Source: a virus. From it: DNA of 64,000 nucleotides. The stretch's first letter is position 1. Every line of letters begins with the position of its first letter. Where the stretch lies: IMG/VR virus record IMGVR_UViG_3300027985_000557, positions 1 to 64,000 of that record, one strand, 5' to 3'. Below the pieces are notes generated by a model. It saw only the letters and a list, made by a program, of their open reading frames with translations, did not search any database and was not told the DNA's origin. Both the position numbers and the translations under genes were made by a program. This document shows positions 3,989 through 28,933 of this stretch, one piece after another.

Positions 3989-5533
3989 ATGGAAGCCATG
4001 TACGACCAGAGTTTTACCTTGGACCCCTCGAACAGGCCCCGCTACCGGGCCGTTCCTGACTACTGGGATCATATCCTAAAAGGCAACCACCACCGAGTAT
4101 TCACATTCATCTACTTCCACGTGGCGCGCCTCATTGCCTCGAACACAGGCACTGTCAAAAAGTACCGGAAGCGGGCAAATGGCGGTGTCTGGTGCCAAAG
4201 TCCTCTGATAGCCGAACGCCTGGGCTGCACTGAAAAAACCGTGAACAATGCCATAGCTTACCTTGATTCCATCGGGTTGCTTATTCGTGTAAGCAATCCG
4301 TCGCACGCAAGGGAAGAATTACGGCGTGTCTTCTTCGTGAATCATGCGGTCCTGAAGAGACTTGACGCCGCCTACATGAGCGTCAACACGGACGCATGGC
4401 ACGAACGCTATGACTCTTACGAAGAATACGAGGACGCCAAGCAAGAGGCCGTAATGCGGGAGTGGGACAATTTCATCACCGCAGGTCGTGAAGCCGCTAT
4501 TGAACAATTGATTACCGAGTACAAGGTCACGCTACCCCCGGCGGTAAAAATTACCGCCACCCCCGGTGACTTTTACCGTCCCTCTTACTTAGACAATATC
4601 AAAGACAATAAAGAGGTTTCTTCTTCGAAGAAACCGGTGGTTCCGAGCGGAACCACCTGCACGCCGGCTGCGCCCCCTGTGACAAGGCGTCGTGTCCCCG
4701 AAGGTCTTGCCTCCAGTGAAACACCCTTGTTCAAACGCAAACCAGTCCTTGATGCCAAGACAGGACAAGAAGCCCCTTGCAATACCCTTGCCCAACATGA
4801 ACGCTACTTGCTTGAATACTGGAACAGCAAAGACACCTTGCGGACCCATAAGATCCCGTCTGAGGGTTCCGCGCCGACGAACACCGTCAGGCGGTTTATC
4901 ACGGACCTCAAGAAGCTCATGGGCGGCACCTTGTTCAAGGGCCTGCAAGATGTAGATCCTTGTCACGTGCGGGCCTACAGCGTGGCCGAGGTGCGCAAGG
5001 CCATCGACGCGTTTGCCCTGGCCGACCCAGTGCTCCGCGACGGGGTGGGCCTGGACACCTTCTTATTCAATCCTAACCGGGTGGGCGGGCGCAACGGCTT
5101 TGGGCGCTCTTGGTTTCTGGCGGCCCTGCACAACGACGTGCGCGGTTCGATAACCCAGCGCGCTGATGACCATCCCGATCTGACACAGAATTTAATCAAG
5201 CAGTATCGCTATTACCATCTCAGGAACAACCCGGTTCAGTTTGATACCCGGGACATGAACAGTTTTATTCAATCGACTGAAAAGATCTTTGCCCTTTACG
5301 CCAAGTACGAAGAACGGTTCAGAATGCTCAACTACGGCCCTATCGACATCATGCGCAAGGCCGTAGAGGTATCGGCTCATTGGGCCAAGCGGATTGACGT
5401 TACCCCAGCCACCATGCACTGCGACTCTCTGTTCAAAGCTATCGAGGCCTCCATGCTGAAGTCCGGTGTTGTCCAGCAAGACAGCGCCGACGACGAAACC
5501 ACCGTGTTCGACATCTACGCACCCCGCGACTAG
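3989..5533 (+). CDS. Putative replication initiator / helicase-loading protein with winged helix, 514 aa
   Basis: The ATG at 3989 (AAGGAG seven bases upstream) is chosen because the longer reading frame would start inside the terminator hairpin. Residues about 30-105 read as a helix-turn-helix domain (SPLIAERLGCTEKTVNNAIAY ...). A linker at about 220-260 holds TRRRVP and TPLFKRKPV, the basic motif recurring in other replication proteins. The C-terminal half is helical with aromatic residues. Position directly upstream of the DnaB-like helicase, with a DNA-binding N-terminus, suggests an initiator or helicase loader; no named family is certain. Confidence 0.6.
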   Translation: MEAMYDQSFTLDPSNRPRYRAVPDYWDHILKGNHHRVFTFIYFHVARLIASNTGTVKKYRKRANGGVWCQSPLIAERLGCTEKTVNNAIAYLDSIGLLIRVSNPSHAREELRRVFFVNHAVLKRLDAAYMSVNTDAWHERYDSYEEYEDAKQEAVMREWDNFITAGREAAIEQLITEYKVTLPPAVKITATPGDFYRPSYLDNIKDNKEVSSSKKPVVPSGTTCTPAAPPVTRRRVPEGLASSETPLFKRKPVLDAKTGQEAPCNTLAQHERYLLEYWNSKDTLRTHKIPSEGSAPTNTVRRFITDLKKLMGGTLFKGLQDVDPCHVRAYSVAEVRKAIDAFALADPVLRDGVGLDTFLFNPNRVGGRNGFGRSWFLAALHNDVRGSITQRADDHPDLTQNLIKQYRYYHLRNNPVQFDTRDMNSFIQSTEKIFALYAKYEERFRMLNYGPIDIMRKAVEVSAHWAKRIDVTPATMHCDSLFKAIEASMLKSGVVQQDSADDETTVFDIYAPRD

Positions 5534-5544
5534 GAGCTGGCTTC

Positions 5545-7071
5545 ATGAGTCTGAGTAGCAACCCGCGTTTGCAGAAGGTAGTAGGCCATGAAAAGATCAT
5601 TATCACCGGCCTCATCGTGTCGGACACGTTCTGCCAGCAGATTGTGCCGATACTCGACTTCAACATGTTCGAACAGACGTGGATGCGCGCCCTTGTTGTG
5701 AAGTGCGTGGCATACTACGAAGAGTACCACGCCTCCCCGAAGCAAAGTGTCATCTCGCTGTTTGAAGTCCTGCAAGATGAACTGAGCGAAACAGAAGCGG
5801 ACCTTATCGCTACGTTCCTTGAGATGCTGTCCACGGACTACGCCAAGATTGAGGCATCGTTCAATGAACAGTTCTACATCGACGAAGCGGACATGTTCGT
5901 CAAGAAGAAGTCTTTGGAGGCGCATATCAGCCGCATCCAAAGTATGATCGTCATGGGCAAAACGGAAGATGCCTACGCTCTGGCGAACAACTTTAAGCCT
6001 CATGCCCTCAACGGGCACACGAACGGCTTCTGGCGGTTGCGTGAGGACACCAGCTATGTGAAGATAACACACGCGGACGAGGAAACCAGCGACAGCCGCA
6101 TCGTACTGGAGTACCCCGGGGCCGTGGGTCGTTTGATCGGCCCTTGTCGGCGTGGATGGCTGGGCGCTTTCCTGGCCCCCATGAAACGTGGCAAATCCAA
6201 CTTTCTCATGGAATCAGCGGTCCTGGGCGTGCTGAGGGGGCGCAAGGTATTCGTCGCCCTGCATGAGATGAAAGAGGATGAATGGTTCGACCGCCTGCTG
6301 CTGAATATCAGCGGCGGCGTCTACGGCGACAACACGGCCCTGAACATGCCTGTGTTCGACTGCCTGTCCAACCGCGAGGGCACGTGCATCAAGACCTTCC
6401 GCATAAACAAGGAGCCCTACGGCAAAGGGAGCAACCCCCGGTACATGGCATGCAATGTCTGTGAACGGGTCAAGGATGGCGGGCACAAGCCCTGTGTGTC
6501 CTTTCCGCTCACGGAGTTTCCCCGGCTGAAAACGACGGATGCTAGACGCATAACCCAAAGTTTCGGGGCCAGTGCCGGTGGCGACATCATACTTAAGAAG
6601 TATGACGCCAACACCGCCAACAGCAAAACGCTCTACCGAGATTGGCAGTACCTCGCAGATTCTGGCGACGTGTGTGACATCATAATTTCTGACTACGCGG
6701 ACATCCAAGGCCCGGAAGATAAAGGGCAGGTTGATTCTATCCAGCGCATCGACGCTACGTGGCTCGGACTGAAGTGGTTGGCGGACACCACGAATGCACT
6801 TACACTCACGGCCACGCAAGGCAAACTCAAATCCTTGACTGCTGACGACATCGGGCAGGACGACGTGTCCGGGTACATCGGCAAGGCGGCCCATGTTGAC
6901 TTCATGGTGGGCCTGTCACAAACCAAGGAAGAGAAGTCGCAGGGCATTATGCGCCTCAGCAACCTATATCACCGATTTGCGTCCTGTAACGACAACACAT
7001 GTTGTTCAGTACTCCAGCGCCTTGACTGCGGAAAGTACATTCTTGACAGTAGGATGGGAAAGGTGGCCTAA
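5545..7071 (+). CDS. Replicative DNA helicase, DnaB-like (RecA fold), with Cys-rich insert
   Basis: The N-terminal ~120 residues resemble the DnaB N-domain, followed by the ATPase domain. Walker A is APMKRGKSNFL (about 207-217) and Walker B is IIISDYADI (about 379). Between them is an insert with CLSNREGTC and CNVCERVKDGGHKPC (about 272-317), a plausible zinc site. The C-terminal part has a Q/arginine-finger-like segment. The product should unwind DNA 5'-3' ahead of the phage polymerase together with the primase at 2757. Starts 11 bases after the putative initiator. Confidence 0.85.
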   Translation: MSLSSNPRLQKVVGHEKIIITGLIVSDTFCQQIVPILDFNMFEQTWMRALVVKCVAYYEEYHASPKQSVISLFEVLQDELSETEADLIATFLEMLSTDYAKIEASFNEQFYIDEADMFVKKKSLEAHISRIQSMIVMGKTEDAYALANNFKPHALNGHTNGFWRLREDTSYVKITHADEETSDSRIVLEYPGAVGRLIGPCRRGWLGAFLAPMKRGKSNFLMESAVLGVLRGRKVFVALHEMKEDEWFDRLLLNISGGVYGDNTALNMPVFDCLSNREGTCIKTFRINKEPYGKGSNPRYMACNVCERVKDGGHKPCVSFPLTEFPRLKTTDARRITQSFGASAGGDIILKKYDANTANSKTLYRDWQYLADSGDVCDIIISDYADIQGPEDKGQVDSIQRIDATWLGLKWLADTTNALTLTATQGKLKSLTADDIGQDDVSGYIGKAAHVDFMVGLSQTKEEKSQGIMRLSNLYHRFASCNDNTCCSVLQRLDCGKYILDSRMGKVA

Positions 7072-7111
7072 AAATCTGGCAACTTTTTGCATAAATCGTC
7101 ATGGTACTCCC

Positions 7112-7140
7112 TTGCTTTTGGGCATGCCCCGGGGTATTAT
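7112..7140 (+). promoter_or_regulatory. Sigma-70-type promoter candidate before the clamp operon
   Basis: TTGCTT (7112-7117) and TATTAT (7135-7140) are separated by exactly 17 bases, in the 142-bp gap after the helicase. The expected start near 7147 leaves a leader of about 65 nt before the ATG at 7214. This is the best vegetative promoter match seen in the window and would drive the next gene and possibly the sliding-clamp operon. Confidence 0.6.
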
Positions 7141-7213
7141 GACTTTGACACTAGCAACACGGGGCGGAAGGGCCGCCCATAACTTCCAACCAACCCCACA
7201 GCGGGAGGATACC

Positions 7214-8053
7214 ATGGAATACGCCGCCATCAAATCGGCCGTCGAAAAGCTGAACGCCTCGCTCGAAAACAAGATCAAGACCGTGGCCGTCAAGGCCGAC
7301 GACGTGAAGTCCAACTTCTCCAAGGCCATCGGCGACCTGGGCCTGGAAGCCACCCTGGTTCTCGATCCCGACATCATCCGCGCCTTCGTCCACGTGGTCG
7401 GCGCGCTGCCCGATGCCGACTACGCGGGCCTGGACGAAAAGATCCGCACCGTGTACGACGGCATCCCGGACGAGTACTTCGCGGCCCCGGCCAGCGCCGA
7501 GGGCGAGGGCGAGCGCACCGAGGGCGCTTCCGAAGGCGACGGCACCAAGGCCCCGGAGGACCCCAAGGCTCCGGCCGCGCCCAAGGCCCCCAAGGAGCCC
7601 AAGGCCCCCAAGAAGCCCGGTGACAAGGGCTACAAGTCCGAGTGCGCCGACTTTGGCAAGAACTGCGACGACGCCGCCCAGCTCTGCCGGTCCTGCAAGG
7701 AAAGCCGCAACGACGAATACACCGTCTGCGCCGAGAAGACCGCTGCCAAGAAGGCCAAGAAAGCCCCGTCCGCCCCGGTGCGCGAGAAGAACGCCCTCGG
7801 TCACGTCATCGGCTCCATGTCCGCCGACATCGACGAAATGTTCCTCGCCGGCCCCTGCTACGCCGACGACGTCATCAAGGTGCTCATGGAAAAGCACCCC
7901 ACCAAGGACGCCGCGAAGGCCAAGGAAAAGCTGAAGAGCCACATTTCCTGGCTGATCAACCGCGAAGGCCACAAGGTCGTGCAGACCCCCGAAGGCGAAG
8001 GCGACGCCAAGCGCGTCAAGATCGTCTTCACCGCCAAGGCCCCGGCTGCCTAG
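7214..8053 (+). CDS. Acidic/Lys-Pro-linker protein with Cys cluster, 279 aa
   Basis: The ATG at 7214 is preceded by GGGAGG, and the frame upstream overlaps the promoter, so the longer start is rejected. Residues 1-95 are a helical domain. Residues about 95-140 are a low-complexity Ala/Pro/Lys/Glu linker. Then comes a cysteine cluster (ECADFGKNC ... CRSC ... VC) and a C-terminal ~80-residue domain that could be a winged helix. The Cys cluster resembles that at the end of the ssDNA-binding protein. It is flanked by its own promoter and terminator, which suggests high independent expression. Function unknown; a DNA-binding role is inferred. Confidence 0.65.
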   Translation: MEYAAIKSAVEKLNASLENKIKTVAVKADDVKSNFSKAIGDLGLEATLVLDPDIIRAFVHVVGALPDADYAGLDEKIRTVYDGIPDEYFAAPASAEGEGERTEGASEGDGTKAPEDPKAPAAPKAPKEPKAPKKPGDKGYKSECADFGKNCDDAAQLCRSCKESRNDEYTVCAEKTAAKKAKKAPSAPVREKNALGHVIGSMSADIDEMFLAGPCYADDVIKVLMEKHPTKDAAKAKEKLKSHISWLINREGHKVVQTPEGEGDAKRVKIVFTAKAPAA

Positions 8054-8085
8054 CTCACCCGCATCGGGTGGATGAGTTAGGTTTA

Positions 8086-8119
8086 GGCCCTGCCCCATGT
8101 TCCAGGGGCAGGGCCTTTT
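8086..8119 (+). terminator. Strong intrinsic terminator
   Basis: Eleven-base perfect stem GGCCCTGCCCC/GGGGCAGGGCC with an eight-base loop, then TTTTC. A smaller hairpin (CACCCG-CAT-CGGGTG, 8056-8070) lies just upstream. It separates the 279-residue gene from the clamp gene. Confidence 0.88.
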
Positions 8120-8137
8120 CAATCCAAGGAGGAAAGC

Positions 8138-8899
8138 ATGATCAGCGTCAAGTCTAAGGATATGGCAACCTTCCTCAAACGCGTCTACCTCGGGGGCGTC
8201 ATTGAGGACTGCGTACTTCAAACGACCCCCGAAGGCATGTGTGTTCAGGCCCTCGACCTGTCCAACACCCTGCTCCTGTCCGTCGCGGCCCCTTTCGAGG
8301 CGACCCTCAATGCTGGTAACCTGGGCATCAGTCTGCTCGACTGGCTTATCAAGGCCCTTGGCTCATTCGGCGACGGCCAGATCGAAATGGGCATCGAAGG
8401 TAACCGCCTCATCATGCGCGGGGCCGGCAACAGCCTGAAGTACCTGCTCTCCAGTGCCGAGGCCGTCCCGACCATGCCTGAAGACCCGGCCGCCCTTGCC
8501 ACCGTCAAGGATGCCCTGGTCTATTCCGTCAAGCTGGACGACCTGAACAAAGGCAACCTGACCACGAACATCAGCTTGTTCAAGAAACCCACCGTTACGG
8601 TAAACATCAACGCGAACAACGGCAAGGGCACCTGCTCCGTCGTCTGCGGCGCGGAAACCGAGAACCAGTTCACCGTCCAGTTCGGCCGCGTGACCGTCGC
8701 TGAGGGAGCGGAGATTATGCCGCTGTCTTTTGAGGTCAATGCAGCCCACGTCAAAGCCTGTCTGGAAGCCACGTCCAGCGGCGAAGGAACCCCGCTCATG
8801 ATGATGGCCGCGAACCCCAAGTACCCGGTCATCATCTGCCAGGGCATGGACCTCTGGGGATTTCTCCCTGCCGTCGCCCGTCCGAGCGGAGGTGCCTAA
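8138..8899 (+). CDS. DNA polymerase sliding clamp (gp45/PCNA-like)
   Basis: At 253 residues the protein fits a T4 gp45 or PCNA-type subunit with two similar halves. The pattern ISVKSKDMATFLKRVYLGG ... GMCVQALD at the N-terminus is clamp-like, and the C-terminal half (LSFEVNAAHVKACLEA ... YPVIICQ) repeats the fold. The call rests mainly on length, this pattern and the one-base overlap with the clamp-loader gene that follows. Its job would be to tether the family A polymerase and recruit partners. GGAGG precedes the ATG. Confidence 0.72.
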   Translation: MISVKSKDMATFLKRVYLGGVIEDCVLQTTPEGMCVQALDLSNTLLLSVAAPFEATLNAGNLGISLLDWLIKALGSFGDGQIEMGIEGNRLIMRGAGNSLKYLLSSAEAVPTMPEDPAALATVKDALVYSVKLDDLNKGNLTTNISLFKKPTVTVNINANNGKGTCSVVCGAETENQFTVQFGRVTVAEGAEIMPLSFEVNAAHVKACLEATSSGEGTPLMMMAANPKYPVIICQGMDLWGFLPAVARPSGGA

Positions 8900-9837: not shown

Positions 9838-9846
9838 GAGGTCTAC

Positions 9847-10545
9847 ATGCCGCCGCGTAAGAAAGAAGTGCCCCAAGCCGAGTATGGCCGCCTGACCGAC
9901 ACGCTTGGGATCGCCATGGCTAACCCGGTGGCCCTTGAGGAAGAGGGTGTGAGTACGCCGAAACCTGACTTTTTCGGTGATATTCAGAACTACTTCACCA
10001 AGGGTCGCCCGGTGACCACGGACAGCAACGGCAACGAGACGTACATTCAGGCGCGGTTCCTCTCAATGGCGGCCCAGGGCTTTGAAGGGGCCGCCGCCTA
10101 CAACCGGCTCTCTGCCAAACTGCCGAAGTGGGCGCGGGCCGTCGTGCTGTACTGGCTCACCCCGACCTTGTCCCGCGCGCCTCGGATGAACTACATCAAG
10201 GCCGAGAAGGGCAAGGAGACGGACGCCTACAAGGAAGTCATCCAGAAGATCGTAAACTACTTCAAATGCCGGCCGCACCATGCCCCGCAAATCTACGACT
10301 TGCTTGAGGCCCAAAAGTTCGATATATACGGATTCTTCGGGCTGAAGGCACCACGTGGGTTCCTGGGCAGCACGGGTAAGGAGGACGACGATGTCGATAA
10401 ACCTGGACGATCTGCCGGAAGAAGTGCTGGCACACGTACGCAGCCTTCCAAAGGAAGAGCAAATCGAGGCGCTGGGGCGGTTGCAGCGGGGGGAACTCCC
10501 CAAGGGCATGACGAGACGGGGCTCTTTACTCGTCGGCGGCCATAG
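9847..10545 (+). CDS. Clamp loader small subunit (gp62-like) with Arg-rich overprinted tail
   Basis: The first ~181 residues match T4 gp62 in size and general pattern, including RFLSMAAQGFEGAAAYNRLS followed by LPKWARAV. The position directly after the gp44-like gene supports the call. The last ~51 residues are low-complexity Gly/Arg/Thr/Ala, are encoded in DNA shared with the next gene, and end in TGLFTRRRP. That end is the same motif found in RuvC and other replication proteins here. The tail may be a flexible docking arm. Homology to gp62 is weak at sequence level. Confidence 0.62.
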   Translation: MPPRKKEVPQAEYGRLTDTLGIAMANPVALEEEGVSTPKPDFFGDIQNYFTKGRPVTTDSNGNETYIQARFLSMAAQGFEGAAAYNRLSAKLPKWARAVVLYWLTPTLSRAPRMNYIKAEKGKETDAYKEVIQKIVNYFKCRPHHAPQIYDLLEAQKFDIYGFFGLKAPRGFLGSTGKEDDDVDKPGRSAGRSAGTRTQPSKGRANRGAGAVAAGGTPQGHDETGLFTRRRP

Positions 10546-10735: not shown

Positions 10736-10745
10736 AACACACAAC

Positions 10746-10770
10746 CGGGGGCATGGCCGTCGTGCCCCCG
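10746..10770 (+). other. Intergenic GC hairpin
   Basis: Stem CGGGGGCA/TGCCCCCG with a nine-base loop and no T-run. Closely similar hairpins with GGGGCATGGCC or GGGGGC stems sit before other start codons at 2501 and 14055. It may be a processing, stability or weak termination element. Confidence 0.45.
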
Positions 10771-11344: not shown

Positions 11345-11353
11345 GGAGCTGAC

Positions 11354-18254: not shown

Positions 18255-18815
18255 ATGGGAGAACACAATTACAGGGAAGACGTCAAGATCGACAAATTTG
18301 CCCTTGACGAAGAACTGCTTCAGCACCCGGCCAAGTACATGATGTACGCCGAGCTGGCGGCGGACGCGGTGTTCGCCAGGGACAAGGCCAAGGAAAAGCT
18401 CGAGTTCATCGAAGCTGAACTCGACTCCGAATGCCGCGCCCATTGGGATGCGCTGTGCCCCGGTATCAAAATCACCAATGACGGCATCACGGCCTGGATT
18501 CGTCAGCAACCCGTGCGTCGCGAGGCGGTCAATGACCTCAACGTAGCCACCAGGAACATGAACCTGATGACGGCCGCTAAAGAAGCCTTTCAGCATCGGA
18601 AGAAATCCTTGGAAGGACTCAAGGAGCTCTACCTCGCCGGCTACTTCTCGCGTCCGGTCATTCCCGAAGAATCGCGGTACAAGGCGGAACAAGCTCGCGA
18701 GGCCGCGTCCAGCGAAGCTCTCGGAGCCAACCCGCGCCTTGCTGGCCGCCGTCGCCCGGCCCCGCCCCCGCCGAGCGAAACCGCTAAACCTCTCCCTGGG
18801 GCTGAACAAGGGTAA
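18255..18815 (+). CDS. Putative recombination mediator (UvsY-like context), 186 aa
   Basis: The N-terminal ~130 residues are helical with a coiled-coil character (VKIDKFALDEELLQHP ... AELAADAVFARDKAKEKLEF). The same arrangement recurs in phage proteins found next to ssDNA-binding protein and RecA/UvsX genes. The C-terminal ~45 residues are Pro/Ala/Arg-rich and contain LAGRRRPAPPPP, a relative of the basic motif in other replication proteins. Mediator function, loading recombinase onto ssDNA, is inferred from position only. Confidence 0.5.
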   Translation: MGEHNYREDVKIDKFALDEELLQHPAKYMMYAELAADAVFARDKAKEKLEFIEAELDSECRAHWDALCPGIKITNDGITAWIRQQPVRREAVNDLNVATRNMNLMTAAKEAFQHRKKSLEGLKELYLAGYFSRPVIPEESRYKAEQAREAASSEALGANPRLAGRRRPAPPPPSETAKPLPGAEQG

Positions 18816-18817: not shown

Positions 18818-18967
18818 ATGCCACAAAATTCATTGGGCATTCTTGCGCTAGTCGGCGGGGCCGGTGCTATGGTATTGCTTTGGCTTTACCTTGCCGCCCG
18901 GCTCGTGTCTTACGGAATAACCAAAAGCTACTTCCAAGCCAGGAAGGAGGAACAACATGGCAATTGA
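18818..18967 (+). CDS. Small single-pass membrane protein, 49 aa
   Basis: Starts two bases after the previous stop and overlaps the first codons of the ssDNA-binding protein gene. It has one hydrophobic helix (LGILALVGGAGAMVLLWLYL) and a basic/acidic C-terminus. The ribosome binding site of the next gene is inside it. It could be a real membrane peptide or a translational-coupling leader for the highly needed ssDNA-binding protein. Confidence 0.5.
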   Translation: MPQNSLGILALVGGAGAMVLLWLYLAARLVSYGITKSYFQARKEEQHGN

Positions 18968-20099
18968 CCGCAGCGCGATTCGCAACAACCTTGCCGGCCG
19001 TACCGCTCAGTCCTACGCCAACAAGGACAATGAAGGTGGCTTCCGTATCTACGTGCGCCCCACCAACGGCCGCCCGGTCTTCCGCAAATTCGCCGAAGGC
19101 CAGATTATGTTCGACATCATCCCGTTTGCTATCACGGCTAACTTCATGCTGGACCCGGATGCGCCTGGCAAGCCCAAGTACCTCGCCGGCCAGTGGCGCT
19201 ACTTCCTGGAAGTCTTCAGCCACATGAACATCGGCCCCAACAACTGGAACGTCGCCTGCCCGAACAAGAACTTCGGCCTGCCCTGCCCTATCTGCGAGGA
19301 GTTCTCGCGGCTCCAGGCGGCCGGCGCGGATTGGGACACCGTCCTGAAGCCGCTGAAGCTCAACCGCCGCTGCGTCTACAACATCTGGATGCACGACGTT
19401 CCAGCTCTCAAGGAAGAAGCCAAGGGCGTGCAGCTCCTGGAAATCGCCCACTTCTCACTGGAAGCCAATATCCTGTCCCTGGCCCGCGACCCCCGTACCG
19501 GCGCGGTCACCGAAATCGCCGACCCGGACAACGGCCGCACGATCTACTTCGAGCGTAAGGGAACGAAAGCGGACAACACCAAGTACACGGGCTTCCAGCT
19601 TCTGCCGCGTGACATCGCCATTCCCGACGAAATCCTGGAGCAGGCCGTTCCTCTGAACGAAGCCATCGAGATTCTGGACTACGAGGCGCTGGACGCCCTG
19701 TTCCATGGCGGAGCTGCCCCGGCCCCGGCCGGTGACGAACCCGGCACCGTGCGCGCCCCGCGTCGTGGCCCCTTGTCCGCCCCGGCCGCCGCTGCCCCCC
19801 AGAAAACGCCCCTGGCGGCCCCGTCCGCTCCCGCCGCGACCCCGCCCCGACGTCCGGCTCCCCAGGCCGCCTCTGAGCCCGAAACGGTTCCGCCTGCCGC
19901 GACCCCGCCGGCTGCTCCTGCCCGTCGTCCGGCCCCGGCGGCTGCTGCCACCGCCGCTGCCCCGGAACCGGCCCCCGCTGCCGGTGGCGACCAGTGCCCC
20001 CACGGTATGATCTTCGGCCAGGACACCGACAAGATCGAGGCCTGCAACGGTTGCGATCTGTACGACGCCTGCGGCGCGGCCTTCGACGCGAACAACTAG
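18957..20099 (+). CDS. Single-stranded DNA-binding protein (gp32-like) with long Ala/Pro linker and Cys tail
   Basis: The first ~250 residues form the DNA-binding core with a gp32-type CPICEEF site and the basic aromatic segment GGFRIYVRPTNGR. Residues ~255-345 are a low-complexity Ala/Pro linker with PPRRPAP and PARRPAP. The last ~35 residues carry CPHG ... FG ... ACNGC ... YDAC (Cys at 347, 363, 366, 372), a likely zinc module. The same module is found with identical spacing at the end of the 131-residue protein at 21811. Position between the putative mediator and the recombinase fits gp32. AAGGAGG precedes the ATG. Confidence 0.78.
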   Translation: MAIDRSAIRNNLAGRTAQSYANKDNEGGFRIYVRPTNGRPVFRKFAEGQIMFDIIPFAITANFMLDPDAPGKPKYLAGQWRYFLEVFSHMNIGPNNWNVACPNKNFGLPCPICEEFSRLQAAGADWDTVLKPLKLNRRCVYNIWMHDVPALKEEAKGVQLLEIAHFSLEANILSLARDPRTGAVTEIADPDNGRTIYFERKGTKADNTKYTGFQLLPRDIAIPDEILEQAVPLNEAIEILDYEALDALFHGGAAPAPAGDEPGTVRAPRRGPLSAPAAAAPQKTPLAAPSAPAATPPRRPAPQAASEPETVPPAATPPAAPARRPAPAAAATAAAPEPAPAAGGDQCPHGMIFGQDTDKIEACNGCDLYDACGAAFDANN

Positions 20100-20150: not shown

Positions 20151-21377
20151 ATGGCCGACACTCCTGTTCGCAGACGTCCCGCCCCTGCCCCTGCGGCCAC
20201 CCCAGCGCCTGAGCCTGTCCGACGCCGGCCCGCGCCCGTAACTGCCCCACAAAGCGCGATCGATAAAGTGGCGGAGCAGGTGGCCGAATCCGCCCTGTCC
20301 GAGCCCCAAAAGCGTGAGCCGGTCAACACCGACATCATGATTTCTACCGGGTCCACCCTGCTCGACCTCGCCATTTCCGGCGGCATCATCCGGGGCGGCG
20401 GCATACCGGGCGGCATCCTTGTCGAGATGTATGGCCCGTCCGGTACTGGCAAATCGGCAGTCATGTGCGAGATACTCGGCAACGTGCAACGAAAAGGCGG
20501 TCTGACCTCCACACAAGACCCCGAAGGTCGCCTCAATGCCGGGTACGCCAAGGTCTACGGCATGAACATCGACCCCAAGTCGTATGATCGTCCTGACACC
20601 GTTGTTCAGGCGTTCACCAACACCCGGAAGTTCATTGCCAGCCATTTTCGCAAAAAGAAGACTGATCCGATAAACGCCATCGGCACAGATAGCCTTGCCG
20701 CTCTCTCATCTGAACTGGAGATGAGCAAGGACGGCGATAAGATGGGCATGAAGAAGGCCAAAGACCTGAACCAGGAAATGCGCCTTACCTGCCGAGACAT
20801 CGCAAACTCAGGCAACCTCGTCATCTGCACAAACCAGGAACGTGGTGAAGGCTACGACGCCAAAACGCCCGGCGGTCAAGCCGTGGGGTATTACGCCTCG
20901 GTTCGCCTTCGTCTTACTCCCGACCACGCCAATGATGTGAAGAAGGACGTCAAGGTCAAGGAAGTTCTGGGCATTGTGGACGAGGACGACGAGGACGATC
21001 CGAATACCAGAACGGAAGCCAAAAAAGGTCGTAAGGGGAAAAGCGAAAAGGGACAGGTCGAGAAAGTACTCGGCATTCGTACGAATATCGCCGTGGTCAA
21101 AAGCTCGGTGGATGACCCCTACCGCATGGCCTACGTCTACATCGTCTTTGGCTACGGCATCGACGACGTGCGCGCCAATCTCCAGTGGATGAAGGATATG
21201 CTTCAGACTACCACCTACGTGACCCCGAGCGGTAAGAAATTCCAGGGTATCGCCCAGGCCATCGACTCGGTAGAAAAGTACGGCGAAGAAGCCGCCTTGC
21301 GGGAGCAGGTCATCGACTTGTGGGAGGCCATCGAGAACGCCCTGAAGGTCAAGCGTAAGCCGAAGGTTAGGATATAG
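20151..21377 (+). CDS. RecA/UvsX-like recombinase, 408 aa
   Basis: The start at 20151 has GGAGG at 20141-20145. The N-terminal ~45 residues are a Pro/Ala extension with two copies of PVRRRPAP. The RecA core follows with STGSTLLDLAISGG, Walker A GPSGTGKS (~94-101), an IGTDSLAAL strand acting as Walker B, and VICTNQERGEGYDAKTPGGQA (L2/motif region). A strongly acidic insert (VDEDDEDDPN) interrupts the C-terminal part. It catalyses strand exchange for recombination-dependent replication and repair. Confidence 0.92.
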   Translation: MADTPVRRRPAPAPAATPAPEPVRRRPAPVTAPQSAIDKVAEQVAESALSEPQKREPVNTDIMISTGSTLLDLAISGGIIRGGGIPGGILVEMYGPSGTGKSAVMCEILGNVQRKGGLTSTQDPEGRLNAGYAKVYGMNIDPKSYDRPDTVVQAFTNTRKFIASHFRKKKTDPINAIGTDSLAALSSELEMSKDGDKMGMKKAKDLNQEMRLTCRDIANSGNLVICTNQERGEGYDAKTPGGQAVGYYASVRLRLTPDHANDVKKDVKVKEVLGIVDEDDEDDPNTRTEAKKGRKGKSEKGQVEKVLGIRTNIAVVKSSVDDPYRMAYVYIVFGYGIDDVRANLQWMKDMLQTTTYVTPSGKKFQGIAQAIDSVEKYGEEAALREQVIDLWEAIENALKVKRKPKVRI

Positions 21378-21559: not shown

Positions 21560-21811
21560 ATGGCACCTTCACCGCTTTCCATACTCCAACTCCGCATCCT
21601 TGAATACCTTGTCAACGAGGCTCCCGACCGTGTGGCGACAAAGCGCATGATTGGTACGGCTATCTTCGGTGCCCAGGAGTTCGTGGCAGACAAGGTGTGG
21701 CCGGATTGCAAGGCGCTGGAGGAAATGGGGCTTATCTCCCGCATGAACGTACTTCACAACGCGGTGTACTCTCCCACGGACAAAGGTTACGAATACATCA
21801 GGACACGATAA
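21560..21811 (+). CDS. Winged-helix-like DNA-binding protein, 83 aa
   Basis: GGAGG precedes the ATG. The whole chain reads as one winged helix: LSILQLRILEYLVNEAP, a recognition-type helix (VADKVWPDCKALEEMG), then a wing LISRMNVLHNAVYSPT and a final helix. It could be a small regulator of middle genes or a DNA-bending accessory factor. No specific family is assigned. Confidence 0.6.
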   Translation: MAPSPLSILQLRILEYLVNEAPDRVATKRMIGTAIFGAQEFVADKVWPDCKALEEMGLISRMNVLHNAVYSPTDKGYEYIRTR

Positions 21812-22206
21812 TGCTTTTACAGTATATGAAGAACCACGTGGCTGATAGGCTGGATCATATTGAAAAACACCTAACCGAAGCACGTCGGCAACTCGCTGTT
21901 GTTTCTTCTGATGAAGCCCTTATAATCCGTATGAAGGCGTGCTTATCCCTTGGCACCGAAATTGATGTAATTAAGGGTGATACCGAATCTATCCTAGCCG
22001 TTATCGGAGCCAAAGGCGATAACGAAGATGCTATGAAAGACATGACTCCGGTCATTGAAGAACTCAACAAAATGCGAGAATTACGGGGGGACACGGTAGA
22101 CAAATGTCCCGGAGGCGGCGGTTTCGGCAAACATCCTGATCATATGAACGCATGCGCCACGTGCCCGGTGTATGACGCATGCGTAGAAGCCTGCGACGGG
22201 GATTAA
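21811..22206 (+). CDS. Helical protein with SSB-type C-terminal Cys module, 131 aa
   Basis: ATG overlaps the previous TAA (TAATG). Residues 1-~90 are helical. The C-terminus is CPGG ... FG ... ACATC ... YDAC (Cys at 99, 115, 118, 124). It matches the C-terminal module of the ssDNA-binding protein at 13 of 26 aligned positions with identical spacing. The shared module suggests a common partner or a shared zinc-binding tail function. Location between recombinase and 5'-3' exonuclease supports a role in replication or recombination. Confidence 0.65.
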   Translation: MLLQYMKNHVADRLDHIEKHLTEARRQLAVVSSDEALIIRMKACLSLGTEIDVIKGDTESILAVIGAKGDNEDAMKDMTPVIEELNKMRELRGDTVDKCPGGGGFGKHPDHMNACATCPVYDACVEACDGD

Positions 22207-22207
22207 T

Positions 22208-23104: not shown

Positions 23105-23107
23105 CTC

Positions 23108-23908
23108 ATGCGCGCCATTGGGTTGGACATGTCGATCACCTGTGCTGGGGTGGCCATCGTCCATTTGACCTCTGCTGGTCTACACTATCAAACCGTGAAG
23201 CGTGTCACGTCCGCACCGGGCAAGGGCTCGGACGCCTTGCGCTACCACCACATCTGTGAAGAGATTAGCGACATCATCTGCCTGCGGCCCACGGACCTCG
23301 TATTCATTGAAGAGTATGCCTACGGGGCCAACGGCCAGATTACCCGCATTGCCGAACTTGGCGGCACCTTGCGCTACAAAATCCTCGTTGAACAGGAATT
23401 TGACTATGCCCGGTGGTTTGAGGTTGGTCCCTCTGCCCTCAAGAAGTTCATAGTAGGCAAGGGTAACGCGGCCAAGGAACAGGTGATTAAGGAAGTTTAC
23501 AAGCGGTACGGCTATGATGCGGCGGACAACAATGAAGCCGATGCCCTGTCTCTTGCCATGCTGGGCGGCACCCTCATGAACATGGACAACGTCGAGCCGG
23601 CCAAGTACCAACGGGAAGCCATTGAGGCTGTCCTCAAAAGGAACAAGGTCACCCATGAGCAATTTCGACGGCTTATTCCGGCGAAGACAACCGAACCAAC
23701 CACAGCAGGAGCCGCAAAAAGCGCCCCAAGCGGCCCCCGTCGCCGCCCCAGCACAACCCAGCCCAGCGGCCCCGCAGACGGCCAAGGCGGCTCCGTCTGC
23801 ACCCCCAGCGCCCCTACTGCGCCGACGCGCCGACGCCTTAGCGCCGGCCCCGCCCCTGACGTCCCAGGACTCTTCCAGCGAAGAATACCTGTCCAAAGCA
23901 AAGAATGA
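23108..23908 (+). CDS. RuvC-like Holliday junction resolvase with overprinted Arg/Pro tail
   Basis: The RNase H-fold core (residues 1-~180) shows MRAIGLDMS (first Asp), VFIEEYAYGANGQ (Glu) and DNNEADALSLAML (C-terminal Asp cluster), the four acidic positions of RuvC. The remaining ~80 residues are low-complexity Pro/Ser/Thr/Arg with SGPRRRPS, APTRRRLS and, close to the end, PGLFQRRIPV. This tail is encoded in DNA that overlaps the next gene for 254 bp in another frame. The enzyme should debranch recombined DNA before packaging. Confidence 0.85.
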   Translation: MRAIGLDMSITCAGVAIVHLTSAGLHYQTVKRVTSAPGKGSDALRYHHICEEISDIICLRPTDLVFIEEYAYGANGQITRIAELGGTLRYKILVEQEFDYARWFEVGPSALKKFIVGKGNAAKEQVIKEVYKRYGYDAADNNEADALSLAMLGGTLMNMDNVEPAKYQREAIEAVLKRNKVTHEQFRRLIPAKTTEPTTAGAAKSAPSGPRRRPSTTQPSGPADGQGGSVCTPSAPTAPTRRRLSAGPAPDVPGLFQRRIPVQSKE

Positions 23909-24254
23909 ACTCGTCTATGAAGACTACAAACGGCAGCATCCTGAATCCTGGGAAAAGTTCCAAAAGAAGCACTTTGCGGCAGGGGCCACCACGCCCGTAA
24001 ACAGGGGGTGGATCTACTACAAAGACGCCATGCCCCCACGCGAGTGGATGATAGTTCTTTACACGGATGAATCAGGACATAAGCCAGGAGAAGTGTCTGT
24101 TTCCCTCGGCCTCGCCTGCACCCTGTACGACCACATCATGGCAGATTTGAAAATGTTCGGGAAAGATGGTCTTCGGTTCAAATACTGGCAACCCGTTCCG
24201 GTCCCGCCCGGCATGGAAGGGCGGACTGAGTATATAGGGGAAGCAGACGTGTAA
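23655..24254 (+). CDS. Protein with GLFRRRQP motif and disordered N-terminus, 199 aa
   Basis: ATG 23655 is the best start; the overlap with ruvC is 254 bp. Residues 1-~75 are a Pro/Gln/Ala-rich disordered arm beginning FDGLFRRRQP and later PLLRRRADAL. Residues ~80-199 are a compact domain (NELVYEDYKRQHPESWEKFQ ... GWIYYKDAMPPREWMIVLYT). No family was recognised. The N-terminal motif matches that at the ends of RuvC and the gp62-like protein, so this is probably a replisome-associated protein. Confidence 0.62.
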   Translation: MSNFDGLFRRRQPNQPQQEPQKAPQAAPVAAPAQPSPAAPQTAKAAPSAPPAPLLRRRADALAPAPPLTSQDSSSEEYLSKAKNELVYEDYKRQHPESWEKFQKKHFAAGATTPVNRGWIYYKDAMPPREWMIVLYTDESGHKPGEVSVSLGLACTLYDHIMADLKMFGKDGLRFKYWQPVPVPPGMEGRTEYIGEADV

Positions 24255-24279
24255 CCTGTAACCGATGGAGGATTCACAA

Positions 24280-24528: not shown

Positions 24529-24860
24529 GCAAGGCCATCGTCATCATGAACATGCAGCATATTCTCTTTGCCGAGCAGCAGGCATTACTCAATGCCAACT
24601 TCTCCGGTTATGAGATCATGCTCGTACCCATGGACGGCTGGACAAAACAGGAGATGGACGAACGTGCGGACACGCTGCTATGTACCGAACACGACATCGT
24701 GTTCTTGTCCCCGGTTCCTTACCTGCTGATGAGCATCAGCAAACGCGTGGAGCAGGAGAAGTCAACACGCCGTGTTTACCTGTTCCACCGCGATGTCCGA
24801 TACAAAGCCGTGGACCCCAATTCCAAAAGAGGGTGTGTTCCCTGGATGCTCGTACATTAA
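24516..24860 (+). CDS. Hypothetical alpha/beta protein, 114 aa
   Basis: Alternating hydrophobic strands and helices (KAIVIMNMQHIL, YEIMLVPMDGW, DIVFLSPVPYLLMSI, RRVYLFHR) suggest a small Rossmann-like fold without a visible nucleotide-binding loop. The start overlaps the previous gene, and a GGGAGGA lies about 10 bases upstream. No family recognised. Confidence 0.55.
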   Translation: MSGVGKAIVIMNMQHILFAEQQALLNANFSGYEIMLVPMDGWTKQEMDERADTLLCTEHDIVFLSPVPYLLMSISKRVEQEKSTRRVYLFHRDVRYKAVDPNSKRGCVPWMLVH

Positions 24861-24873
24861 CCGGAGGACAGCC

Positions 24874-25203
24874 GTGAAACGCGAACTGCATGTATTCACC
24901 ATTCCGTTGCCTCCGTTGAAAGACGGGGAAACGAATATATTCTCTTCGTTCGCACACATTCTTCACAAGGGCGCGAAGATCCTTGACGCGCTCATGCTGA
25001 ATGACAAGGCGGTAGTGGCGTGCGTGGTGGACGTGACTCAGCCATATGTCGAGGAGCACAGATTTTTTACGATTGCCCTTGGAAACGAGATAAATCTGTG
25101 CGTTGATGACGTCTACTGCGGTATAATACGGGTTGGCCGTCTATGGCATGGGGTGTTTCATCAGCCTGCCAAGACGAAGACCATCTCTATCCCGGAGGGC
25201 TAA
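24874..25203 (+). CDS. DUF7352-like phage protein, 109 aa
   Basis: GTG start at 24874 with GGAGG nine bases upstream. The pattern HKGAKILDALMLNDKAVVAC followed by a short beta-rich end with HRFFTIALGNE is the one seen in small phage proteins of the DUF7352 type. These are common in replication or early regions and have no known role. Its stop overlaps the next ATG (TAATG). Confidence 0.55.
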   Translation: MKRELHVFTIPLPPLKDGETNIFSSFAHILHKGAKILDALMLNDKAVVACVVDVTQPYVEEHRFFTIALGNEINLCVDDVYCGIIRVGRLWHGVFHQPAKTKTISIPEG

Positions 25204-25457
25204 TGCCCATCATGACCATCAAAGACCTCAAGGATTACCTTGAGGCATATGAAGGTGGTGACACCGATCCCGTCTATGGCGTGCTTACCGGACAGCCGGG
25301 CAAGGCCGACGATGACCTTGCGAACTTCATCTCAACATATTTGCAGCCAAACCTCTCCAAGATGCAGCTCGGCTTCTTCGCCTGCGCCAACCTGCCGACG
25401 ACACTTGAAGAGGCCCAAAAACTGCGTGACACAGCCTTCTTCTTTTCAACCCCGTAA
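25203..25457 (+). CDS. Hypothetical protein, 84 aa
   Basis: ATG overlaps the stop of the preceding gene, implying translational coupling. The chain is acidic at the N-terminus (TIKDLKDYLEAYEGGDTDP) and ends in a hydrophobic FFFSTP. The opening segment resembles a short phage-protein pattern in which a helix is followed by DxDPV, but no function is known. Confidence 0.55.
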   Translation: MPIMTIKDLKDYLEAYEGGDTDPVYGVLTGQPGKADDDLANFISTYLQPNLSKMQLGFFACANLPTTLEEAQKLRDTAFFFSTP

Positions 25458-25471
25458 CCAAGGAGTTCCAT

Positions 25472-25819
25472 GTGCCCAAGGTCAAAGCCTATCCCATCGA
25501 CATCACGACAACCGTTCTTGTCGAACGCACCGACGAAAACGGCAATTGGGTTAACCCCCTTGTGATGACCGTCATGCCCAACAACGATGGTGGCATGACG
25601 CGTATGTTCTCCCTCCTGTTCTCTGAAGCCAAAGACCCCTGGTGCGTCCCGGCTTTGCTTCCCCATGTAATCATGGGCGAATACGAAATTACCGACGAAC
25701 TGGCGCAGCAGTATCGCGAAATGGTCAAGAAGATCAAGCACAAAATCCAGATGGAAACGTCCGGCATCGTCGCCCCGTCCCAGGCGGCCTTGCGGGCCAT
25801 TCAGAAGGGGAATGCCTAA
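25472..25819 (+). CDS. Hypothetical protein, 115 aa
   Basis: GTG at 25472 is used; the neighbouring ATG at 25470 is in another, short frame. AAGGAG lies eight bases upstream. The first two thirds are beta-rich, with a helical, lysine-rich C-terminal third. It ends by overlapping the thyX start (TAATG), which suggests co-regulation with nucleotide synthesis. No family recognised. Confidence 0.55.
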   Translation: MPKVKAYPIDITTTVLVERTDENGNWVNPLVMTVMPNNDGGMTRMFSLLFSEAKDPWCVPALLPHVIMGEYEITDELAQQYREMVKKIKHKIQMETSGIVAPSQAALRAIQKGNA

Positions 25820-26622
25820 TGCCTGCCGCCGGACTTTCGGTCGAACTCTTGGCTTATACGCCGAACGCGCTGGCCCTGGTCAATGCGGCCATGCGCCAGT
25901 GCTACTCGGACGGCTACGCCATCGACATCTTCGATAAGGCTGCCGATGCCCTTTCCGGGGCCGACAGCTTTGAAGAATACAAGCGGCTGAGCGACTTCAT
26001 CGAAGATGTTATCGCTTCGGGTCACGAGTCGCCAGTCGAACATGTCAACTTTACCTTCGCGGTGTCCGGTATCAGCCGCGCCCTGTCCCACCAACTCGTG
26101 CGCCATCGCATCGCCAGCTACAGCCAGCAGAGCCAACGGTATGTGGATGCCAACGGTTTTGCCTACATTATTCCGCCGGCTATCGAAGCCATTCCAAAGG
26201 CCAAGGCCGCGTTTATCACTATGATGGACGAGGCGGCGGAAACATACCAAGAGCTCCAGGGGATGCTTATCGAAGCTGGGCACAAGGCCACGGCCAACGA
26301 GGACGCTCGGTTCGTACTGCCCAACGCGTGCGAAACCCGCGTGGTATTCACCATGAACATTCGCGCCCTGTGGAACTTCTTCGGTCTGCGGTGCTGCTCC
26401 CGAGCACAGTGGGAAATCCGGGCCATGGCTGTCAAGATGCTGGGCCTGTGCCGTGCCATGGAACCCGCTCTGTTCAAATTGGCAGGAGCCAAGTGCCTCC
26501 GTACCGGCTACTGCAACGAAGGCCCCAAGCGCACGTGCGGTAAGCGCCCGTTGTTACCCGTGCCGATTACGCCACTTTACACCGACGAAGAACTTACCGA
26601 ACTTAGCAAGGACTGGCCCTAG
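25819..26622 (+). CDS. thyX: Flavin-dependent thymidylate synthase ThyX
   Basis: The signature RHRxxSxxxxSxR is present as RHRIASYSQQSQRYV (about residues 94-108). The surrounding pattern ASGHESPVEHVNFTFAVSGISR and LPNACETRVVFTMNIRALWNFFGLR is the standard ThyX fold for FAD and dUMP binding. At 267 residues it is close to family length. It makes dTMP from dUMP with methylenetetrahydrofolate. In a phage with possible thymine modification a changed product (hydroxymethyl-dUMP) is conceivable, though the known hydroxymethylases are ThyA-type. The ATG overlaps the previous stop. Confidence 0.95.
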   Translation: MPAAGLSVELLAYTPNALALVNAAMRQCYSDGYAIDIFDKAADALSGADSFEEYKRLSDFIEDVIASGHESPVEHVNFTFAVSGISRALSHQLVRHRIASYSQQSQRYVDANGFAYIIPPAIEAIPKAKAAFITMMDEAAETYQELQGMLIEAGHKATANEDARFVLPNACETRVVFTMNIRALWNFFGLRCCSRAQWEIRAMAVKMLGLCRAMEPALFKLAGAKCLRTGYCNEGPKRTCGKRPLLPVPITPLYTDEELTELSKDWP

Positions 26623-26630
26623 GAGGCGCT

Positions 26631-27230
26631 ATGTTTCGTATCGAGGAATACAGGGGACTCCAGCTTGTGTGGCTGGTGTCCGAGTGCATCAACGACAAGG
26701 ACGAGCTGCTGTACATCTACGACCCGGGCACTAAGGACTTCTTGGTACCCAAGAAGGGGCGCGTGCCACTGCATGCGCTGTTCGCAACTCTGCTGGGCAA
26801 CGGCACCGAAAACAAGGAGTACAAGGGCGCTTGCGCCGTACAGGACTTCTTTTTTCTGCACGAAGAGTTCATGCAGTGCCTTGAACCCAAGCACAAGCGG
26901 AACGACATCTGCATGAACCCGTACTACACGGGCGCGACCCGGGCCTATCGCACGGTACGAATCCTTGAAATCGTGAATGTGAAGCAGTACACGGCTTGCG
27001 GCAACGACGGCCAGAAGTACACCAACCTGAGCATCAGCTACCGCGTCGAAGATACCAAGACCGGCGACCAGTACATCAAGAACGAGGAAGAACTCCTCTC
27101 CCTCGACGAGATCGACGAGGAAAAGGCCAGTGACGCCATTTTCCGCAAGATCAAGAAGTTCGTGACCGACCTGGGCAAGGAGTCGGCCGGCGCTACCCTT
27201 GTATTCAAGGGCAAGGCCTACAAGTTCTAA
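26631..27230 (+). CDS. Hypothetical protein, 199 aa
   Basis: GGAGG precedes the ATG, eight bases after the thyX stop. The chain alternates strands and helices, with a Lys/Glu-rich C-terminal half (EEELLSLDEIDEEKASDAIF). It has scattered cysteines but no CxxC pair. It is followed by a perfect long palindrome. No family recognised. Confidence 0.6.
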   Translation: MFRIEEYRGLQLVWLVSECINDKDELLYIYDPGTKDFLVPKKGRVPLHALFATLLGNGTENKEYKGACAVQDFFFLHEEFMQCLEPKHKRNDICMNPYYTGATRAYRTVRILEIVNVKQYTACGNDGQKYTNLSISYRVEDTKTGDQYIKNEEELLSLDEIDEEKASDAIFRKIKKFVTDLGKESAGATLVFKGKAYKF

Positions 27231-27238
27231 CCGCAACC

Positions 27239-27264
27239 GGGGGAGGGCCTCGAGGCCCTCCCCC
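27239..27264 (+). other. Perfect 26-bp palindrome, hairpin-forming, between two genes
   Basis: Two 13-base arms (GGGGGAGGGCCTC and its complement) with no spacer. It is followed by TT and then GGGGG, which serves as the ribosome binding site of the next gene. Without a T-run it is a poor terminator; it may instead control message stability or access to the adjacent ribosome binding site. Confidence 0.65.
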
Positions 27265-27275
27265 TTGGGGGAATT

Positions 27276-27572
27276 ATGCACCTGGGCGAACTTGAATGGA
27301 AGACCAACGGCAAAAAGGCGCACAAGCTCCACGGCGTGTTTCCCTACCAGCCCGTGGTTCAGGAAAAGAAATTCGGCCATGGTAACGCCGCGCAAACCCT
27401 CATCGTCGTGCTTATGAATGGGCACCCCATCAAGGGTGGATTTGACACCATCAACGAAGCCAAAGTTTACGCCGAGGATTGGGTCTTCTCGACGTGCAAG
27501 CAGCTCGCACAAACCCTGGCCTTCCGGCAGCACGAACGCATCAATGCGGAGGCGGCTCGTGTCGGCGTTTGA
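27276..27572 (+). CDS. Hypothetical protein, 98 aa
   Basis: Short protein starting just after the palindrome. GKKAHKLHGVFPYQPVVQEKKF is basic, and a central GFDTINEAKVYAEDWV segment resembles the strand-helix end of small DNA-binding or AP2-like modules. The next gene has a similar GYDTLEEAKTRAAKIL segment, so the two may be distant relatives. The last codons overlap the next start by 14 bases. Function unknown. Confidence 0.55.
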   Translation: MHLGELEWKTNGKKAHKLHGVFPYQPVVQEKKFGHGNAAQTLIVVLMNGHPIKGGFDTINEAKVYAEDWVFSTCKQLAQTLAFRQHERINAEAARVGV

Positions 27573-27867
27573 TGAAAAAACAGAAGTGAAGTGGGTAACC
27601 TCATGGGGTGGAACTACTTACGTGCTCAGTGGCCTCCACCCCTTTGGGGCCTCTGTGTGGAGCGGGCGTAACGAGCAAAATACGTATGATTGGCGTATCT
27701 CGATCTGCGGTGTTAAGATGAAAAAAGGGTACGACACCCTAGAAGAAGCGAAGACCCGCGCCGCGAAGATACTGCGCAAGGTCATGTTTCGCGGCATCGA
27801 GCACCTTGACGCGTACCTTGAGCAAAAGGAATCTGCTGAAGGAGCCGACCGTGATAAAGGAAATTGA
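27559..27867 (+). CDS. Hypothetical protein, 102 aa
   Basis: GTG 27559 is chosen because GGAGG (27548-27552) precedes it; the longer frame lies inside the previous gene. KWVTSWGGTTYVLSGL and GYDTLEEAKTRAAKIL suggest a small three-stranded sheet plus helix, parallel to the preceding protein. It overlaps the start of the Rad50/SbcC N-half by 17 bases. Function unknown. Confidence 0.55.
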   Translation: MSAFDEKTEVKWVTSWGGTTYVLSGLHPFGASVWSGRNEQNTYDWRISICGVKMKKGYDTLEEAKTRAAKILRKVMFRGIEHLDAYLEQKESAEGADRDKGN

Positions 27868-28933
27868 GCTTATCAACTTTCAGGGGCACGAGCACAGCAC
27901 TCTCAAACTCTCCCCAGGGCTCAATGTCATCACGGGTCCGTCCGATAACGGCAAGTCTTCTATTATCCGTGCCCTCAAGTGGGTGCTCCAGAACCGTCCC
28001 CAAGGGGACAGCATTTGCCGGCACGACACCAACGAAACCAGGGTAATCGTACGAACCAGCGACCACGTTGTGGAGCGTTTCCGCAAGGGCCGGGAAAACG
28101 CTTATGTCGTGGACGGCGAGATATTCAGGGCGATGCGCGGCGGAGTACCCGAAGAGGTGGGAAAGGCTTTGGGCATGTCAGAATCTAGTCTGCAAAGTCA
28201 GCATGAAACCCACTTCTTAATCAACCGACCCCCCGGCGAAGCAGCCAAGTATCTGAACGAACTGGCTGACCTGTCTGAGATCGATGCTGCCATCAAAAAG
28301 GCGAACAGTCTCGTCGGCAAGGCCCAGAACGATAAGCGGCATGCGGAAGTCGAACTTCAGAAACTAGACGATAAAATCGCGGAAAGCGCGAACCTGGATG
28401 CCATCGGCGTGCTGGTCGCCCGCATCGAAAGGGCGGCCGGGGCGCAAGCCACCTTGCGCGCCAAGTCGGACACACTGCTCAAAATCCTGGTTGCGTTCGA
28501 CGAAACCGTTGCCCAAGAAGCCAAAGCCAACAAGGTTCTTGAAGCTGAGGCCGACATCATGGATTTGCGGTGGCGTATCACACAGCACTGCGAACTTGAG
28601 CAACGGTTCACTATTGGACTTCAGCACTACGATGCCCTCCTTGATGCGCAGGAGGCCGTGGATAGGCTGAAGGTAGTGGAAGGTGCGGATGACCTTGCTG
28701 ATCTTAAACAAGAGGTCACGGACTTTATCAACCAGCGTGAGGTCTGCACCGATTTGATGCAGATTCTCACGAACATTCAACGGCTGCAGGAGTCGGAGCA
28801 AAGAGTACGGGGCACCGTCGATAGCATGCAAGGGGAACTTGCGACCCTGTGGGCTGATCTTAAAGTTTGCCCGACGTGTGGGGCTACAATGGGCCAACAA
28901 ACCGCGCCTGTCCAGCGTAGGAGGCCCGCGTGA
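27851..28933 (+). CDS. Rad50/SbcC/gp46-like ATPase, N-terminal half (Walker A, coiled coil, zinc hook)
   Basis: GTG start with GGAG nine bases upstream. MIKEIELINFQGHEHSTLKL and Walker A GPSDNGKSSIIRAL (about 29-42) are typical of Rad50/SbcC. A Q-loop-region segment MSESSLQSQHETHFLIN follows, then ~170 residues of coiled coil. The chain ends at CPTCG (about 340-344), the half-hook, followed by TAPVQRRRPA. Signature motif, Walker B and H-loop are absent; they occur in a separate gene at 31504. With the SbcD-like product it should form the resection nuclease of phage recombination. Confidence 0.85.
   Translation: MIKEIELINFQGHEHSTLKLSPGLNVITGPSDNGKSSIIRALKWVLQNRPQGDSICRHDTNETRVIVRTSDHVVERFRKGRENAYVVDGEIFRAMRGGVPEEVGKALGMSESSLQSQHETHFLINRPPGEAAKYLNELADLSEIDAAIKKANSLVGKAQNDKRHAEVELQKLDDKIAESANLDAIGVLVARIERAAGAQATLRAKSDTLLKILVAFDETVAQEAKANKVLEAEADIMDLRWRITQHCELEQRFTIGLQHYDALLDAQEAVDRLKVVEGADDLADLKQEVTDFINQREVCTDLMQILTNIQRLQESEQRVRGTVDSMQGELATLWADLKVCPTCGATMGQQTAPVQRRRPA

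Follow-up and report, generated by a model that had tools for sequence, protein, structure and literature searches.

Basic terminal and linker tags on phage recombination proteins and their possible tethering to the SSB-ssDNA complex

Basic motifs in the replication genes of the phage

The window analysed here covers positions 1 to 64,000 of an IMG/VR virus record that is 67,045 bases long. The initial annotation had described a short basic motif (GLFxRRxP, with RRRP variants) in flexible parts of its replication proteins, and all of the quoted motifs were found in the sequence, each in the frame of the ORF named for it (Table 1).

Table 1. Basic motifs and associated features in the 64,000-base window
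Feature	Position	Strand	Location and remarks
VTRRRVP	4679..4699	+	Linker of the putative initiator (ORF 3932-5533)
ETPLFKRKPV	4718..4747	+	Linker of the putative initiator (ORF 3932-5533)
TGLFTRRRP	10516..10542	+	C-terminal end of the gp62-position protein (ORF 9847-10545)
UvsY-like 186-aa helical protein	18255..18815	+	Predicted T4 UvsY fold; PHROG families with function not annotated
NPRLAGRRRPAPPPP	18729..18773	+	Basic tip of the UvsY-like protein; counterpart kept in relatives
gp32-like SSB	18957..20099	+	Three basic motifs in linker
APRRGPL	19755-19775	+	SSB linker; added to the initial list
PPRRPAP	19842-19862	+	SSB linker; added to the initial list
PARRPAP	19917-19937	+	SSB linker; added to the initial list
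Acidic four-cysteine element CPHGMIFGQDTDKIEACNGCDLYDAC	19995..20072	+	C-terminus of the SSB; in most relatives; candidate receptor surface
PVRRRPAP, copy 1	20163..20186	+	N-terminal arm of the RecA/UvsX-type recombinase
PVRRRPAP, copy 2	20214..20237	+	N-terminal arm of the RecA/UvsX-type recombinase
VKRKPKVRI	21348..21374	+	Basic C-terminal tail of the recombinase
FDGLFRRRQP	23664..23693	+	N-terminus of the 199-aa protein (ORF 23655-24254); frame overlaps the RuvC arm
GPRRRPST	23732..23755	+	C-terminal arm of RuvC
PLLRRRAD	23811..23834	+	Second basic motif, arm of the 199-aa protein; added to the initial list
TRRRLS	23825..23842	+	C-terminal arm of RuvC
PGLFQRRIPV	23864..23893	+	C-terminal tip of RuvC
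PVQRRRPA	28907..28930	+	C-terminal end of the Rad50-like N-half; no conserved counterpart in relatives

We counted the motifs in the replication half of the window (37 proteins, 9,569 residues) and in the virion half (31 proteins, 8,840 residues), with 300 shuffles for comparison. The replication half contained four matches to LFxR[RK]x?P (shuffle mean 0.03, maximum 1), six to RRRP (mean 0.09) and ten to RRR (mean 2.3); since the motif pattern was picked post hoc, these figures are an upper bound and overstate the significance. The 31 virion-half proteins held zero, one and one matches to the same patterns, at or below chance level, and two further matches to LFx[RK][RK] in virion-half proteins lay in surroundings unlike flexible arms. 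The GLFxRRxP spelling itself recurs in four unrelated proteins of this phage. These counts, taken with a scan of protein families described below, upheld the view that the motif is recurrent, non-random and limited to flexible arms of replication and recombination proteins; an equal frequency in virion proteins was looked for, and the motif proved rare there, both in the window and in the scanned virion families.

The recombinase showed a UvsX-like PHROG match (E 1.2e-38), and its family profile matched bacterial RecA (~4e-45) far better than phage UvsX (8e-11). It ends in a conserved basic tail, RKPKxR, whereas the end of T4 UvsX is acidic; the tail is dibasic in 66 of 69 relatives. The SSB matched the Pfam gp32 family at the cut-off, and a model of its orthologue in the relative L066 matched the RB69/T4 gp32 core with a Foldseek E of 6.7e-07. 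An AF2 model of the UvsY-like protein, built from 50 sequences, had a mean pLDDT of 91, and its first 18 matches in the PDB were all T4 UvsY (target TM <=0.79, best E 0.006, identity 10-15%). By this model, the 186-aa neighbour of the SSB, a member of PHROG families 1069/2058, has the T4 UvsY fold. In most relatives that were examined, a member of these families is the neighbour of the gp32-like SSB. Because the helical protein is modelled with a UvsY fold and the SSB, through its orthologue, with a gp32 fold, the main carriers of the motifs would form a T4-like presynaptic set (gp32, UvsX, UvsY), in which the recombinase is a candidate UvsX.

The acidic element that ends the SSB follows the pattern CPxGxxFGxDx(n)CxxCxxxxxC, for which no Pfam name was found. 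A second copy is located at 22105-22182, at the end of ORF 21697-22206, and in two relatives (L013 and L017) the element is a separate ORF of ~53 codons between the SSB and the recombinase.

RuvC and a DnaB-type helicase had PHROG matches, and the initiator a weak PHROG match only. The names 'clamp' (8138) and 'gp62-like' (9847) given in the initial annotation are based on gene order only: searches of Pfam, PHROGs, PDB sequences and IMG/VR gave no convincing match for either protein. Direct searches of viral contigs with the gp62-position protein, the clamp, RuvC and the initiator returned no relatives. The arm of the 199-aa ORF overlaps the RuvC tail by 254 nt (23655-23908) in another frame. 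Both frames of the overlap encode a GLFxRR motif, and codon statistics favour neither. The ORF opens with ATG at 23655, preceded by AAGG, and this is the sole start before a DUF551-like part, whose match is weak and below Pfam's cut-off.

A degenerate tip among relatives

Searches of IMG/VR with the recombinase yielded 95 loci, most of them at 40-47% identity, and no relative above ~47% recombinase identity (best segment) was found; a search of genome contigs gave two distant recombinases only. The relatives were sorted by hand, according to their SSB N-termini, into groups A and B, with this phage in group B, and their genes were taken from a simple length-based caller. They share a common module of polymerase, loader ATPase, UvsY-like protein, SSB and recombinase, often followed by an exonuclease and Rad50/Mre11. 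For the counts, recombinases were clustered at 80% identity and each cluster was represented once; beyond this clustering, loci of the same clade are not independent.

The exact GLFxRRxP/RRRP consensus had no match across 14 related genomes and was rejected as a conserved motif. The expectation that the motif would be kept at the same places while its flanks diverge was borne out for a degenerate tip class, and failed for that exact consensus. We defined the loose class as [LIVMF]x(0-2)[RK][RK] within 14 terminal residues and compared it with 2000 shuffles. It was present at the recombinase N-terminus in 20 of 24 group B members (shuffle mean 9.3), at the C-terminus of the UvsY-like protein in 18/22 of group B (10.4) and 33/38 of group A (19.5), and at the SSB C-terminus in 15/24 of group B (8.4); none of the 2000 shuffles reached the observed count in any of these four sets. 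Tips of the UvsY-like protein in relatives read, for example, NPRLRRRK, SPRLRKRS and NPRLLRRT. The basic motif of the SSB forms the C-terminal tip in most group B relatives and lies in the linker in this phage; in L024, L028, L056 and L066 the tips are alike (KKKILTRRNK, KKKLTRRER, RKRLVRRDK and KKRLTRRER) and the linkers have diverged. Docking of the SSB tip into its own chain received no support, as the SSB monomer model leaves the tip disordered (pLDDT ~53).

Enrichment over shuffles together with a direction bias of the hydrophobic residue before the basic pair was seen in the UvsY-like C-tip and the group B recombinase N-tip. The SSB tips of group B lacked directionality (15 forward, 15 reverse). 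The order was not enriched in the recombinase N-tips of AT-rich group A (12/41 against 15.7 by shuffle), which were dibasic in 28/41, nor in the group A SSB C-tips, where it was mostly absent. In group B, dibasic content was steadier than the hydrophobic residue (22/24 for the SSB, 23/24 for the recombinase N-tip), and AT-rich relatives keep the tips with Lys in place of Arg.

Control C-termini were not above shuffles for the polymerase (1/15 in group B, 4/30 in group A) or the loader ATPase (1/15 and 0/27), and counts at the same loci were 3/20 and 0/6 for the exonuclease, 3/12 and 1/22 for Mre11, and 4/15 and 5/35 for the Rad50 N-half. An unbiased scan took in 840 proteins from ten genomes, each 80 residues or longer. 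Among the families found in at least four genomes, the tip was carried by at least half of the members of the recombinase, UvsY-like, RuvC, SSB and primase families, of a PDDEXK nuclease at the place of RuvC, and of DnaB at its N-terminus. The C-terminal match in primase was not counted, as it is probably folded sequence. Tip frequency was 0-25% in virion and unlabelled families and 10-33% in other replication families. Terminal enrichment over all proteins of a genome was merely modest (48 group B C-tails against 29.6 by shuffle), and the argument therefore rests on the orthologue groups. Similarity of the tips of different proteins within one phage was weak (p 0.02 to 0.10, with phylogeny ignored).

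Counterparts of the RuvC tip (PTLFKRN and PTLTRRSK) end RuvC in two relatives, and tip-like motifs (RPVLIKRKQ, QKILFKRDK, SRVLKKKP and TPVVRKV) occur in the initiator linker of four; the evidence comprises four sequences for RuvC and five for the initiator. From these few sequences, the motif in the initiator linker is probably conserved among relatives. In several relatives a PDDEXK nuclease occupies the gene position of RuvC (L104:3028-3576, L129:17347-17976 and L098:4331-4975), and these nucleases also end in a basic hydrophobic sequence. The motifs of the gp62-position, Rad50-like and 199-aa proteins, without a conserved counterpart, could be specific to this window. Taken together, the tips are present, consistently placed, non-random in order and conserved in the recombinase, the mediator and the SSB, and the same holds more weakly for the resolvase and the initiator.

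Comparison with T4, cultured isolates and other systems

The acidic A-domain of T4 gp32 is described as an interaction site for UvsX and UvsY, among others (PMC3016280), and it recruits other T4 proteins too (PMC11551737). As in T4, a gp32-fold SSB and a UvsY-fold mediator stand here beside a recombinase and helicase, the SSB tail is acidic in most relatives, and the partners bear basic elements. The SSB linkers of relatives have a mean net charge of -17 and -11 and their four-cysteine elements -5.8 and -4.8. In contrast to gp32, the linker of this phage's SSB is non-acidic (net +1, with a four-cysteine element of -4). Further, the partners here bear short terminal tips, as does the SSB in many cases; the termini of T4 UvsX and UvsY lack them. 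A profile comparison of the group A recombinase N-tips with the T4 gp32 N-terminus was not significant (110 of 1938 shuffles reached the score), and this homology was rejected. A motif described in 1992 (cited in PMC11551737) is likewise short, basic, at the end of an ssDNA-binding protein and tied to assembly on ssDNA, but its consensus and position differ from those found here; the tips of this phage read GLFxRRxP/RRRP, without a Ser/Thr pair.

Two isolates, Mardecavirus MAR10 (JX556418) and Edwardsiella phage ZHS (OM621816), have a gene order similar to that of this phage: beta clamp, PolA-type polymerase, loader ATPase, UvsY-position protein, SSB, recombinase, RuvC-position protein and gp47/gp46. 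Both carry basic tips on the SSB, the UvsY-like protein and RuvC, and MAR10 on the recombinase too. Unlike those of this phage, their tips are Arg runs without an LF element, their clamp appears to be of the DnaN type in place of a 253-aa protein, and their SSB lacks the four-cysteine element. The bacterial SSB-Ct hub resembles the tips: it too is a short motif at the end of an SSB, and it goes with the recruitment of many genome-maintenance proteins. The SSB-Ct is acidic and sits only on SSB, whereas the tips are basic and lie mainly on partners.

Possible partners of the tips

As we read it, the tag would be a basic pair with one or two hydrophobic residues ahead of it; in many cases a proline precedes it and the arm that bears it is disordered. 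The carriers of the tag would be the recombinase (N-terminal tip), the UvsY-fold mediator and the resolvase (C-terminal tips), the initiator (linker) and the SSB, at the C-terminal tip in relatives and in the linker in this phage. The GLFxRRxP/RRRP spelling may be a lineage-specific, Arg/Pro-rich version of it, and this phage alone may have drawn three more motif carriers into the same system: the gp62-position protein, the Rad50-like half and the 199-aa protein. We tentatively propose that the motifs are one class of terminal or linker tag, which marks ssDNA and recombination proteins and would tether them to the SSB-ssDNA complex. Similar tags on the same proteins in distant relatives imply that they probably help gathering on ssDNA, and the acidic SSB linkers and cysteine element of relatives, together with the precedent of the T4 A-domain, led us to judge tethering the likeliest reading. 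The likeliest docking surface would be the acidic SSB tail, formed in most relatives by the acidic linker and the four-cysteine element, by analogy with gp32, which recruits UvsX and UvsY through its acidic C-terminal A-domain. Several observations count against tethering: the SSB linker of this phage is neutral, the cysteine element is absent from the SSB of some tip carriers (L068, L074, L080 and MAR10), the SSB monomer model shows no docked tip, the order is unenriched in the recombinase and SSB of group A and without direction in the group B SSB, tips of the same phage are only weakly similar, and few sequences back RuvC and the initiator. Basic tails are, moreover, common on DNA-binding proteins.

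The main rival, ranked next after tethering and possible though less probable, is that the tips make non-specific electrostatic contacts with nucleic acid and so raise the DNA affinity of ssDNA-handling proteins, with no protein partner. Every well-conserved carrier acts on DNA, the tips of MAR10 and ZHS are plain Arg runs, and the basic pair is more constant than the hydrophobic residue, all of which plain DNA binding would explain. It accounts poorly for the enriched and direction-biased order in the UvsY-like and group B recombinase tips, for the lack of a conserved tip on the DNA-binding polymerase, exonuclease, Mre11 and Rad50, and for the specific spelling repeated in four unrelated proteins here. 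Composition could in principle suffice, with the Pro/Ala/Arg-rich arms of a GC-rich phage generating RRRP repeatedly: a relative with 63% GC (G010) equals the per-residue frequency of RRRP, though its ORF calls probably include spurious frames, and PRRRPEG occurs in one virion-half protein. We consider this improbable, as shuffled arms of the window fail to give the observed counts, the tips of relatives are kept more often than shuffled composition would yield, and the AT-rich relatives keep the tips with Lys.

The tips might instead address another single partner of phage or host, such as the helicase, Rad50/Mre11, a host clamp, or ClpX or another remodeller or protease. Their occurrence on otherwise unrelated proteins would suit such a partner, and tips with LF look like variants of the pentapeptide that binds the bacterial clamp, as basic C-terminal tips resemble ClpX-type tags. 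Internal and N-terminal positions fit a C-terminal degron poorly, and no computed evidence favours any candidate, which makes this reading unlikely. The phage sliding clamp (ORF 8138), the first choice in the initial annotation, turned out to be a poor candidate and is disfavoured, at the least probable end of the readings considered. The motifs do combine LF with basic residues, and the gp62-position protein, expected to contact the clamp, ends in one. However, the tip is absent from the polymerase and the loader ATPase in this phage and nearly all relatives (1/8 for each in the family scan), the identity of ORF 8138 as a clamp is positional, and tip-bearing relatives and isolates appear to have a longer DnaN-type clamp, judged from the beta clamp annotated in MAR10 and ZHS and a weak Pfam match in G011. 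The clamp-position protein (8138-8899, 253 aa) had no detected relatives, and the DnaN-type clamp that relatives seem to carry, of ~341-374 aa, lies upstream of the polymerase.

A more elaborate scheme, which we regard as rather unlikely, would turn the SSB hub around: in a large group of phages, most of them uncultured, the recombinase, the mediator, the initiator, the resolvase and the SSB itself would compete through their basic hydrophobic tips for a single site on the gp32-like SSB, and exchange of tips would order the hand-off of ssDNA from the SSB to the recombinase and the replisome.

Modelling now assigns a UvsY fold to a widespread family that has no annotated function and is usually encoded beside the SSB. 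Should the tips dock to the SSB complex, a single short, transferable peptide would account for the gathering of unrelated proteins at ssDNA throughout a phage group, and deleting tips in isolates such as MAR10 would give a direct test of the hand-off from the SSB to the recombinase.
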